In this document: one piece after another, positions 2,925 through 63,643 of the stretch
How positions within the stretch are numbered: position 1 is the first letter of the stretch
Layout of the letters: each line of letters begins with the position of its first letter
Assembly (NCBI RefSeq): GCF_029814935.1
Contig: NZ_CP104582.1
Span: forward strand, 1,550,001 to 1,614,000
DNA from: Pseudomonas sp. GD03919
GTDB lineage: Bacteria; Pseudomonadota; Gammaproteobacteria; Pseudomonadales; Pseudomonadaceae
Direction: 5' to 3'
Length of the DNA: 64,000 bases
Notes under the pieces: generated by a model
The model's input: the letters and a program-made list of their open reading frames with translations, nothing else
Databases searched by the model: none
What the model was told of the DNA's origin: nothing
Position numbers and translations under genes: made by a program

Positions 2925-4322
<1,398 letters not shown>

Positions 4323-59695: not shown

Positions 59696-60676
59696 ATGAC
59701 CCCTCATCGAATCGGCTTTCTATACTGGCCCGGCACCAAGGCGCTGACGTTATCTCTGGCAGAAGAAGCCCTGCGTGTCGCCCAGCGTGTACACCCGGAA
59801 GTGGTCTACGAGCTGGTGTTTCTCCAGGCCGAGCCGCTGGCGGCCGGTGACTGGCGGCTGCCAGGCGAGCCTTGGGCCGGGCATATGGACGGCCTGGACA
59901 AGCTGTTCCTGCTGGCCGATGTGCCGCCGGCGCAGGTGTCTGCCGGGCTGGCCGCCGCACTCAAGCAGCAGGTACGCAGCGGTTGTGTGATTGGTGGCCT
60001 GTCTGCCGGGGTCTATCCGCTGGCTCAGCTCGGTCTGCTCGATGGTTACCGTGCGGCGGTGCACTGGCGCTGGCGGGACGATTTCGCCGAGCGTTTCCCC
60101 AAGGTCATCGCCACCAGCCATCTGTTCGACTGGGATCGTGATCGCCTGACCGCCTGCGGCGGCATGGCTGTGCTCGACCTGCTGCTGGCCGTGCTGGCGC
60201 GCGATCACGGCGCCGAATTGGCCGGTGCGGTGAGTGAGGAGTTGGTGGTTGAGCGTATTCGCGAAGGCGGGGAGCGCCAGCGCATTCCGCTGCAGAACCG
60301 CCTCGGCTCCAGCCACCCGAAGCTGACCCAGGCGGTGCTGCTGATGGAGGCCAACATCGAGGAGCCGCTGACCACCGACGAGATCGCTCAGCACGTGTGC
60401 GTATCGCGCCGGCAGCTGGAGCGCATCTTCAAGCAGTACCTCAATCGTGTGCCCAGTCAGTACTACCTGGAGCTGCGTCTGAACAAGGCGCGCCAGCTGC
60501 TGATGCAGACCAGCAAGTCGATCATCCAGATCGGTCTGTCCTGCGGCTTCTCCTCGGGGCCGCATTTCTCCAGCGCCTACCGCAACTTCTTCGGCGCCAC
60601 CCCGCGTGATGATCGCAACCAGCGTCGTAGCAACAGCCCCTTCGAGTTGACCTCGACGCCAGTCGAGCGCGGCTGA
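59696..60676 (+). CDS. argR: Arginine regulator ArgR, AraC family with GATase1-like domain
   Basis: Arginine-responsive regulator that activates aot and aru genes and represses arginine synthesis genes. 326 residues: an N-terminal DJ-1/GATase1-like sensor (about 1-190; IGFLYWPGTKALTLSLAEEAL, VIGGLSAGVYPLAQLGLLDGY) and a C-terminal AraC DNA-binding domain with two helix-turn-helix motifs (LTTDEIAQHVCVSRRQLERIF and IIQIGLSCGFSSGPHFSSAYR). It is unrelated to the E. coli ArgR repressor. The start at 59696 (MTPHRIGFLYWPG) matches homologues. Confidence 0.95.
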   Translation: MTPHRIGFLYWPGTKALTLSLAEEALRVAQRVHPEVVYELVFLQAEPLAAGDWRLPGEPWAGHMDGLDKLFLLADVPPAQVSAGLAAALKQQVRSGCVIGGLSAGVYPLAQLGLLDGYRAAVHWRWRDDFAERFPKVIATSHLFDWDRDRLTACGGMAVLDLLLAVLARDHGAELAGAVSEELVVERIREGGERQRIPLQNRLGSSHPKLTQAVLLMEANIEEPLTTDEIAQHVCVSRRQLERIFKQYLNRVPSQYYLELRLNKARQLLMQTSKSIIQIGLSCGFSSGPHFSSAYRNFFGATPRDDRNQRRSNSPFELTSTPVERG

Positions 60677-60723
60677 TCCAGCTCGCTTCCATGCTGCAGT
60701 AGCCCGTATATGGACTCCTCCTC

Positions 60724-60943
60724 TGGCGCAAGTAGCAAGATGGTGATCAACGCGACCGTATATTCGACTTCGTAAAGGGAGCCGTTGCTCCCGAGCCTAG
60801 ATGGGGCGTTCGCTGCTGGAGTGCCTATCGGATGAGCGACCCTATCATGGGGCTGCGGGCTACTCGGCTTTTCTCCAGCCGGATCTGATCCTTATTCCAT
60901 CTTCCGTTGCGCTGTCGGTTGTACCTCCTTGTTGGGTTAAGGC
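60724..60943 (-). ncRNA. Candidate bridge-RNA region of the IS1111-type element
   Basis: The 220 bp downstream of the transposase, inside the repeat, have no open frame of note. In IS1111-group elements the structured RNA that guides target and donor choice is encoded in this long non-coding end. The location fits. I have not derived the guide loops, so the RNA itself is inferred from family knowledge. Confidence 0.4.
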
Positions 60944-61999
60944 TCAGGCCTGCTGTGGCTGAGCCCGATAAGGGGTGTTGTGTTTGATCACGGCATAGAT
61001 GATCCGCGCCAAACGGTTGGCTATGGCGATAACGGCTACCGTGCGTCGTTTACTCTCCAGCAAGCGTCGAGCCACCTGGCTAATGGCATCCTCACGTCTC
61101 TGGCAGTGATTGAGCACCGATTGGGCACCCTGTACCAGCAGCGTTCGCAGGTAGGGATTGCCACGCCGAGTGATCCCCCCCAATCGTCGCTGCTGACCTG
61201 AAGAGCGCTCACTGGGGGTCACCCCCAAGCTCGCGGCGAACTGACGGGCATCGGCAAAGTGGCTGATGTTGTTACCGTACTCGGCAACCACTGCTGTGGC
61301 AGTGATCAGCCCCACACCGTGGATGCTCTGTACCTGCCGAATCAAGACGGATGCTTGGCTGGCAGCTTTGAGTCGGCCTTCGATGCTCTGGATCTGCGCG
61401 TCGATACCGGCGACTTGGCATGTGATCTGTTCAAGTAGCTCGATCAGGCCGGCGCTCACCTCTTGATTGGGCTCCTCCTGGCATACCAGGCGGATCAACG
61501 CCTCCAGCGCAACACGCCCCTGTGGCGCTATCTGACCACGCTCGGCCAGCAGACTCCGGGCCTGATTGAGTAACTGGGTGCGCTGACCAACCAGCAGTTC
61601 CCGCAGCCGGTGCTGAGCGCACAAATCCTGCTGCTCAACCGTTTTGACCGCAACAGCACCTACTCGCCGATCCTGGTGGACGGCAAAGATCGCATCGGCA
61701 TCATTGCCATCGGTCTTGTTGCCGATGCGCTGTTTGTCGACAAATTGAGCGGGAACTCGTTTAACCCGATAACCCAACGCCAAAAGACGTCGGCACCAAT
61801 AATTGCTGCTGGCGCAGGCTTCCATCACCACAAGGCAATCACTATTGGACTCTTCACAAAATAGCCTGTCGAACTGGCTGCGACTCAGCGTCAGGCATTG
61901 TTGGCGATGGCCGTCGGCCGAATAACCATGAACCTGAAATTTATGCTTGGCCAGATCCACGCAATACAACGGACTGTGGGTAGGTGCGCTACGATTCAT
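60944..61999 (-). CDS. IS110-family (IS1111-group) DEDD transposase
   Basis: 351 residues. The N-terminal RuvC-like DEDD domain is marked by LYCVDLAKHKFQVHG (first Asp at 15), VVMEACASSNYW and NKTDGNDADAIF. The C-terminal Tnp_20 domain has SIHGVGLITATAVVAEYGN and GVTPSERSSGQ...RRGNPYLR with the catalytic Ser region. The start at 61999 (MNRSAPTHSP) has GGAGGAG upstream; this ribosome site repeats the sequence of the subterminal inverted repeat. The gene is intact. Confidence 0.94.
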   Translation of the reverse strand: MNRSAPTHSPLYCVDLAKHKFQVHGYSADGHRQQCLTLSRSQFDRLFCEESNSDCLVVMEACASSNYWCRRLLALGYRVKRVPAQFVDKQRIGNKTDGNDADAIFAVHQDRRVGAVAVKTVEQQDLCAQHRLRELLVGQRTQLLNQARSLLAERGQIAPQGRVALEALIRLVCQEEPNQEVSAGLIELLEQITCQVAGIDAQIQSIEGRLKAASQASVLIRQVQSIHGVGLITATAVVAEYGNNISHFADARQFAASLGVTPSERSSGQQRRLGGITRRGNPYLRTLLVQGAQSVLNHCQRREDAISQVARRLLESKRRTVAVIAIANRLARIIYAVIKHNTPYRAQPQQA

Positions 62000-62307
62000 G
62001 GCGGACTCCTCCTCTCTACAGCGTTTGTCGGTGACCCTTCTCAGGTATAGACAATCTGGCACATTGCGATGCCGTCCGTGGGAGGAGGAGTCCATCCCAT
62101 CAGATGAAATCCGGGGCGATCAGGTGCCGGCCCCGGATTTCATCCGGGCTACGCAATCACGGGTTTCGATACCGGCTGGTCAGCCTGCGGAGATTTTTTC
62201 CCGCGGCGTGCTCCAGGTGATGATCTGCGATTAAACTGCGCCTTTCCGACGCTTTCTGTCGCTTCGACGAAAACCCGTGGAAAACCCGGGGTGGCGCTGT
62301 AAGAAGT

Positions 62308-62323
62308 TGTCGCATGGCGACAA
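62308..62323 (+). promoter_or_regulatory. ArgR half-site upstream of aruC
   Basis: TGTCGC-N8-AA again, about 100 bp before aruC, embedded in AGTTGTCGCAT as at aotJ. It lies to the right of the IS element, so operator and gene are still joined. Confidence 0.55.
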
Positions 62324-62335
62324 TGCCAGCCCTGA

Positions 62336-63643
<1,308 letters not shown>

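Follow-up and report, generated by a model that had tools for sequence, protein, structure and literature searches.

A predicted guide RNA matches the REP site occupied by an IS1111-type element in Pseudomonas

What directs an insertion sequence (IS) to one exact position within a REP palindrome? The question is raised by a 64,000-nucleotide stretch of the genome of Pseudomonas sp. GD03919 (hereafter the window), in which an intact IS1111-type element of 1,396 bp (60707-62102) splits one REP arm. Since the element lies exactly inside the REP and carries guide segments that match it, its landing-site choice can be read from its own sequence. As far as sequence comparison can tell, that choice is very probably set by a guide RNA from the non-coding end downstream of the transposase gene, tnp.

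On the tnp (minus) strand, the element reads TGATGGG (the 7-nt left tip, 62096-62102), a 14-nt subterminal inverted repeat (sTIR), ATGGACTCCTCCTC (62082-62095), then tnp (60944-61999) and a 237-nt non-coding end (60707-60943) that closes with the inverted 14-nt sTIR (60710-60723) and the 3-nt right tip, ATA (60707-60709). The two sTIRs are complementary at 14 of 14 positions; the outer flank is TAT for one and CCCATCA for the other, which is the 3- and 7-bp asymmetry described in a sequence-only reading of this DNA that preceded our analysis. The same reading gave the non-coding end 220 bp: the region is right, but the distance to the tip is 237 nt, as the shorter figure omits the repeat and the tip. 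Non-coding DNA thus amounts to 237 nt downstream of tnp versus 103 nt upstream, the total length of the left end. The intact tnp encodes a DEDD transposase of 351 aa in which the Pfam domains DEDD_Tnp_IS110 (PF01548) and Transposase_20 (PF02371) are both above cut-off, and the segment GVTPSERSSG can be read as the G--P----SG motif given for IS1111 transposases (PMC11187229).

These features are those of the IS1111 group: a DEDD transposase with an IS110-type C-terminal domain, here of 351 aa for an expected 330-350; perfect or near-perfect sTIRs, usually of 11-13 bp (PMC11187229) and here matching at 14/14; extensions of 7 bp on the left (TGATGGG) and 3 bp on the right (ATA), with empty sites that reveal no target duplication; a longer non-coding region downstream of tnp; a single target in a single orientation in 4/4 copies; and, at the sequence level in the predicted RNA, a top-strand match 5' of the bottom-strand match. 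The element lacks the arrangement of the strict IS110 group, with the RNA upstream of tnp and the bottom-strand match first. Among its relatives, sTIR arms starting with ATGGAC are common.

The 4.66-Mb genome holds four near-identical full copies (99-100% identical), all with tnp free of internal stops, so that the element looks recently mobile. Nucleotide-level matches came from two of the 398 genus genomes drawn, namely the element's own genome, which was in the sample, and a second genome, G255; this survey scored only two candidates per genome. The nearest transposases in a large protein database are 74-89% identical and lie mostly on contigs of 1.3-2.2 kb (P0002-P0012); one that is 81% identical is labelled Pseudomonas sp. 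CAU 1711. Among the matches listed in a genus protein search, no relative from another species exceeds 44% identity. A plasmid DNA search gave two partial matches only, covering 7-9% of the query, and a phage DNA search with the element gave no match. The best 5,000 records of the plasmid protein searches are all less than 60% identical to the transposase, and no ISfinder name for this IS appears among the matches listed there.

The insertion site can be defined to the base. The REP half on the right-end side (60699-60706, minus strand; CGGGCTAC in the tnp reading, target positions 0 to +7) joined to the remainder on the left-end side (62103-62117, minus strand; GCCCCGGATTTCATC in the tnp reading) gives the 23-nt sequence GTAGCCCGGATGAAATCCGGGGC, the exact reverse complement of the second, intact arm of the REP pair (62130-62152, plus strand). 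The perfect 23-bp arm previously rebuilt by joining 60706 to 62103 is therefore confirmed at every base. All four genomic copies lie at TTTCATC^CGGGCTAC in one orientation, reading GATTTCATC^CGGGCTAC on the tnp strand. Empty sites in related genomes, which had been suggested as a check, were looked for and found: the orthologous loci of G012 (L162) and of the same-species genome G255 (L173, L174) both read GTAGCCCG|GATGAAATCCGGGGC, keeping GTAGCCCGGATGAAATCCGGGGC unsplit at the locus of the window and revealing no target duplication. These empty sites, together with the same junctions in 4/4 copies within different flanks, exclude a chance match at the junction.

Five right-end fragments in G255, located at contig ends or close to them, also follow a REP half. 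This half reads exactly GTAGCCCG in four of them and GTAGCCGG in L180, at an error-rich contig end; one left end in the same genome precedes GATGAAATCCGGG. No copy of this IS was found in a non-REP target, the four in its own genome being in REPs and the G255 fragments beside REP halves. The right-end fragments L177-L180, from G255 contig ends, show about 6-11% differences near those ends, which probably reflect low-quality assembly edges, not true variants.

Could the half-REPs instead belong to the ends of the element, carried along with it and never a target? They do flank every copy seen, but G012 and G255 lack the element and have an intact REP at this locus, the sequence past the shared REP bases differs between copies, and intact REP arms are numerous in the genome (40 + 147 with the 13-nt core); we give this idea a negligible chance. 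Just as improbable is a segmental duplication of one inserted REP region, which would turn four insertions into one and would suit the 99-100% identity of the copies. At the three other places, however, the matches stop within the REP pair or at its border, all four outer flanks are different and unrelated, and the right ends of G255 adjoin further, other flanks. Separate insertions into REP targets are the reading that we keep. That the IS reads a REP sequence, as was claimed for it, is supported both by the one REP junction shared by 4/4 copies and by guide segments matching this junction.

The guide segments belong to a predicted guide RNA (bridge RNA, or long seekRNA) on the minus strand at 60755-60885. 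Its T guide, GUAGCCCG (60856-60863), would pair with the top strand at target 0 to +7, and its B guide, UCAUCCG (60829-60835), with the bottom strand at -5 to +1. They occupy positions 80-88 and 109-115 of the non-coding region, respectively, in the IS1111 order, with the top-strand match first. A possible ninth T-guide base, the A at 60864, matches the target in the window copy only. The two guides match both target strands at 15 of 15 positions, as anticipated for a guide loop in the non-coding end complementary to the REP junction.

How unusual is such a match? Loci L001-L160 supplied 106 elements that passed the end finder, with 93 distinct 13-nt targets, the window element included. A first automatic end finder placed some ends wrongly, among them cases in which a REP palindrome outscored the sTIR; ends were re-anchored on ATGG arms, loci without such an arm were dropped, and residual wrong ends count as misses. 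The guide score compares 8 nt with target 0 to +7, then 7 nt with -5 to +1, the two starts being 20-35 nt apart. The full score of 15 obtained by the window element is reached by 9 of the 93 elements, by none of 7,730 swapped RNA-target pairs and by none of 3,000 shuffles of the window RNA. Scores of at least 13 on the own target occur in 57/93 elements versus 30/7,730 swapped pairs, and the own target stands above every control in 47 elements and not in the other 46. Relatives tolerate guide mismatches, as in L154, which matches 7/8 on the T side. The nearest relatives with DNA, L061 (54% identical) and L062 (50%), score only 10 and 11, like many controls, perhaps from misplaced ends; the RNA covariance model nonetheless matches both (65.1 and 67.5 bits, respectively). 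In L062, the guide-RNA end occurs twice in tandem (2667-2796 and 2972-3101, 305 bp apart).

This covariance model was built from 47 relatives with guide scores of at least 12, the window element excluded (49 non-redundant segments out of 78, minus L117, which is incomplete, and L039). As its members were picked by guide score, the model is independent of the window element but not of the T/B layout. Its match in the window runs from 60885 to 60755 with 59.7 bits and an E-value of 6.7e-13 (a rough figure, from a short calibration), while the next-best match there has 10.9 bits and an E-value of 0.29. The consensus fold combines stems of 7 bp and 3 bp, an internal loop, an apical hairpin and a second stem of 4 bp; T lies on the 5' strand of the internal loop and B on the 3' strand, and in the window element these two strands hold GUAGCCCG and UCAUCCG. 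Compensatory changes affect 15 of the 18 consensus pairs, and 92.8% of cells are paired, versus 27-45% (maximum 45.4%) when partners are slid by 1-3 columns. The fold energy of the 67-nt target loop is below that of most shuffles (z -2.10), and that of a 116-nt segment is ordinary (z -0.57); with single-sequence energies this modest, the case for a guide RNA rests on covariation and on the guide matches. An Rfam search over 60400-62500 produced nine matches, all below threshold and four of them on the REP palindrome, which we rejected. The model of relatives thus locates a guide RNA where no Rfam family reached threshold, and the structured RNA that the sequence-only reading expected in the non-coding end is predicted there with the backing of covariation.

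As far as we know, REP-targeting elements of the IS3 and IS4 families work without a guide RNA. Insertion sequences of other families that target REPs, IS3 and IS4 among them, have been reported (PMC1525189), and the transposase studied here might likewise recognise REP DNA itself, by sequence or by cruciform shape, the RNA being incidental. We see only a slim chance of this: the RNA has both target segments where those of its relatives lie, relatives with other RNAs occupy other targets, and the variable target bases vary in the RNAs too.

If the guide RNA does set the target, transposition might proceed as follows. The IS would excise as a circle, the junction of its ends would serve as a promoter for both tnp and the RNA, and the transposase would bind the guide RNA. 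The target loop would pair with the REP, on the top strand with CGGGCTAC and on the other with the bottom strand of TCATCCG, while a second part of the RNA would pair with the two ends of the circle itself (GATGGG, left; ATATA, right). The DEDD recombinase would then exchange strands at the paired target and donor.

Candidate donor guides are found downstream of the T and B guides. The window element carries CCCAUC (60800-60805, minus strand), complementary to left-end nucleotides 2-7 (GATGGG), and AUAUA (60759-60763, minus strand), identical to the final five nucleotides of the right end. Among 79 elements with guide scores of at least 12, the window element included, a 5-mer complementary to left-end nucleotides 3-7 sits about 30 nt past the B-guide start and, in each of the four largest end classes, tracks the left tip: CCCAT in 29/30 elements with CAATGGG, CCAAT in 10/10 with TAATTGG, CTCAT in 8/9 with TAATGAG and TCCAT in 6/6 with TAATGGA, with no cross-matches among these classes. 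The small classes TAATGGG, TGATGAG and TGATGGG showed the expected 5-mer in 0/3, 0/2 and 1/2 elements, respectively, and most other small classes were scored without their own 5-mer. The right tip is tracked likewise, by ATATA in 42/43 elements (ATA), ATACA in 27/27 (ACA), ATAGA in 5/5 (AGA) and ATAGG in 1/1 (AGG); of the 27 ACA elements, 15 also contain ATAGA and 10 contain ATAGG, and the GTA (n = 2) and CTA (n = 1) classes were scored without their own 5-mer. This positional test replaced an unplaced, wide-window test in which own and other left tips were not separated (own tip strictly best in 13/79). Donor and target guides have been predicted for ISPa11 and others (PMC11208160), and the candidate segments of the window element and its relatives agree with those donor guides. 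According to PMC11187229, the role of the long seekRNA remains to be established; donor pairing would give it a task.

The ends, once joined, may also form a promoter-like sequence. Connecting 60708-60707 to 62102-62099 would create a candidate -10 box, TATGAT, with a 17-nt spacer from a candidate -35 box, TTGCGC (60726-60731, minus strand, by hand-counted coordinates), which has 3 mismatches. Over the 79 elements, including that of the window, the junction hexamer differs from TATAAT by 1.04 mismatches on average, versus 4.34 at shifted positions. A junction promoter is described for ISEc11 (PMC11187229).

Does the guide distinguish between variants of the REP? Counted by the 13-nt REP core, intact arms in the genome number 40 with TCATCCGGGCTAC (T at -5) versus 147 with another base at -5, of which 94 among the 100 listed have G (GCATCC). 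All four insertions lie in arms of the rarer T subtype; drawing four of four from 44 of 191 has a probability of 0.0025, a post hoc value with n = 4. With U as the first base of its B guide, at -5, the RNA matches the TCATCC subtype perfectly and the other subtype with one mismatch, a G at -5 lowering the guide score from 15 to 14. A guide-based choice would thus favour TCATCCGGGCTAC over GCATCCGGGCTAC, and the presence in a single genome of two REP subtypes distinguished by a guide base makes this a natural setting for testing specificity. Several nearby REP pairs in this genome hold one arm of each subtype.

The same genome harbours a second IS1111 element (L141, 906961-907971, and L142, 1753045-1754055), inserted at G^TAGGAGCC of two different repeats that have those bases in common and that, judging by their palindromes, we read as REP-like. 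It shares the guide-RNA family of the window element (77.7 bits, although the model holds close kin and is not independent) and differs from it in its site, its sTIR (ATGGACTCGCCC) and a transposase that is about 35-36% identical; its T guide is GGCTCCTAC. For the T guides of this lineage, GGCTCCTAC, AGCTCCTAC, CGCTCCTAC, AGCTGCTAC and CGCTCTTAC, the sites of the own host are best or equal best, with 8.5-9 of 9 matches; on the B side, only 3-6 of 7 positions match. The comparison covers eight host groups that are related and have five guides among them, so they do not represent eight independent events. The second lineage seems to point the same way, towards a guide fitted to the host's repeat variant.

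A further, less expected feature of the left end concerns expression of the transposase. A third, internal and inverted sTIR copy of 13 nt (62003-62015, minus strand) ends 3 nt before the tnp start and overlaps its likely ribosome-binding site. In a transcript through the left end, the left sTIR (62082-62095) is predicted to pair with this copy, burying the likely ribosome-binding site (-47.6 kcal/mol, z -3.33), and a transcript from the presumed junction start has a predicted fold of -40.5 (z -2.97). In 49/79 elements, that of the window included, the internal copy agrees with the element's own sTIR at a minimum of 10 of 12 positions, versus 8/754 comparisons with other sTIR classes and 2/395 shuffles; the own sTIR is strictly best in 57/79 and tied in 7. 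Matches of at least 10 occur in 44/79 left-end regions versus 5/316 control windows inside tnp. Several sTIR classes, for example those starting with ATGGTCA or ATGGACCCATCC, have no good internal copy among the examples listed.

Which arm does the internal copy follow? We set aside a first comparison (64 for the left end, 21 for the right), biased because the copy had been located using the left arm. With unbiased location in 66 of the 79 elements, sTIR positions at which the two arms disagree give 7 distinct cases in which the copy sides with the left arm, 0 in which it sides with the right and 1 in which it matches neither; beyond the sTIR the tendency is weak (left 36, right 24, neither 35). 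The copy would follow the left arm if that arm is its pairing partner in the mRNA, and the agreement inside the sTIR favours such an mRNA hairpin over a simple binding site. Transcripts entering through the left end, or starting at the circle junction, would then fold the left sTIR onto the start site and keep transposase low, which, if real, would help explain how elements of this IS1111 branch stay quiet. The principle is already known from ISPpu9, an IS110 element at REPs whose 5'-UTR likely buries the ribosome site (PMC8450116); for a hairpin formed by the sTIR itself, we found no report in the accessible passages of the open-licence literature, which is weak evidence. Slightly short of an even chance is how we rate the combined proposal that the left sTIR of this branch has a second duty, curbing the transposase through this fold, and that REP-targeting IS1111 elements have guides adjusted at single bases to the REP subtype of each host. 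The subtype fit and the left-end hairpin are the two by-products that deserve a test.

How does the element compare with known systems? Its nearest counterpart by published description is ISPa11, another IS1111-group element sitting in a REP, that of P. aeruginosa. The ISPa11 seekRNA, which co-purified with its transposase, is located downstream of tnp and has matches to both strands of the target, the top-strand match lying 5' of the bottom-strand match (PMC11187229). Like the window element, ISPa11 is without direct repeats in the account of PMC1525189, which places its insertion between REP bases 6 and 7, whereas the window element cuts the REP arm 8 nt from its end. ISEc11, ISKpn4 and ISPst6, whose seekRNAs were purified, have the same IS1111 anatomy and guide order (PMC11187229), but their targets are not REPs. 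A DEDD recombinase and REP targets are also common to the IS110 elements IS621, ISPpu9 and ISPpu10; IS621 inserts into REP elements by means of its bridge RNA (PMC11208160), and the solved structures nearest to our transposase are those of IS621 (8wt6, E-value 5.2e-7) and ISCro4 (9t56, E-value 9.7e-7). In the IS110 type, however, the RNA generally lies upstream of tnp and the sTIRs are short or absent, the opposite of what we find, and the guide order was reversed in the one tested member cited, in contrast to T then B here (PMC11187229); direct repeats of 2 bp have been reported for ISPpu9 and ISPpu10 (PMC1525189), whereas the window element made no duplication. The proposal of a natural REP-targeting, bridge-guided recombinase is therefore supported computationally, with less novelty than it implied, as ISPa11 and IS621 are in print. 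A 2006 paper described IS110-family elements that target REPs (PMC1525189), and the seekRNA of the REP-targeting ISPa11 followed in 2024 (PMC11187229). An RNA-guided IS1111 element that targets REPs has thus already been published, and the present element joins these known systems as a well-documented case: its target and empty site, a predicted guide RNA and candidate segments for target and donor pairing are all readable from the one element.
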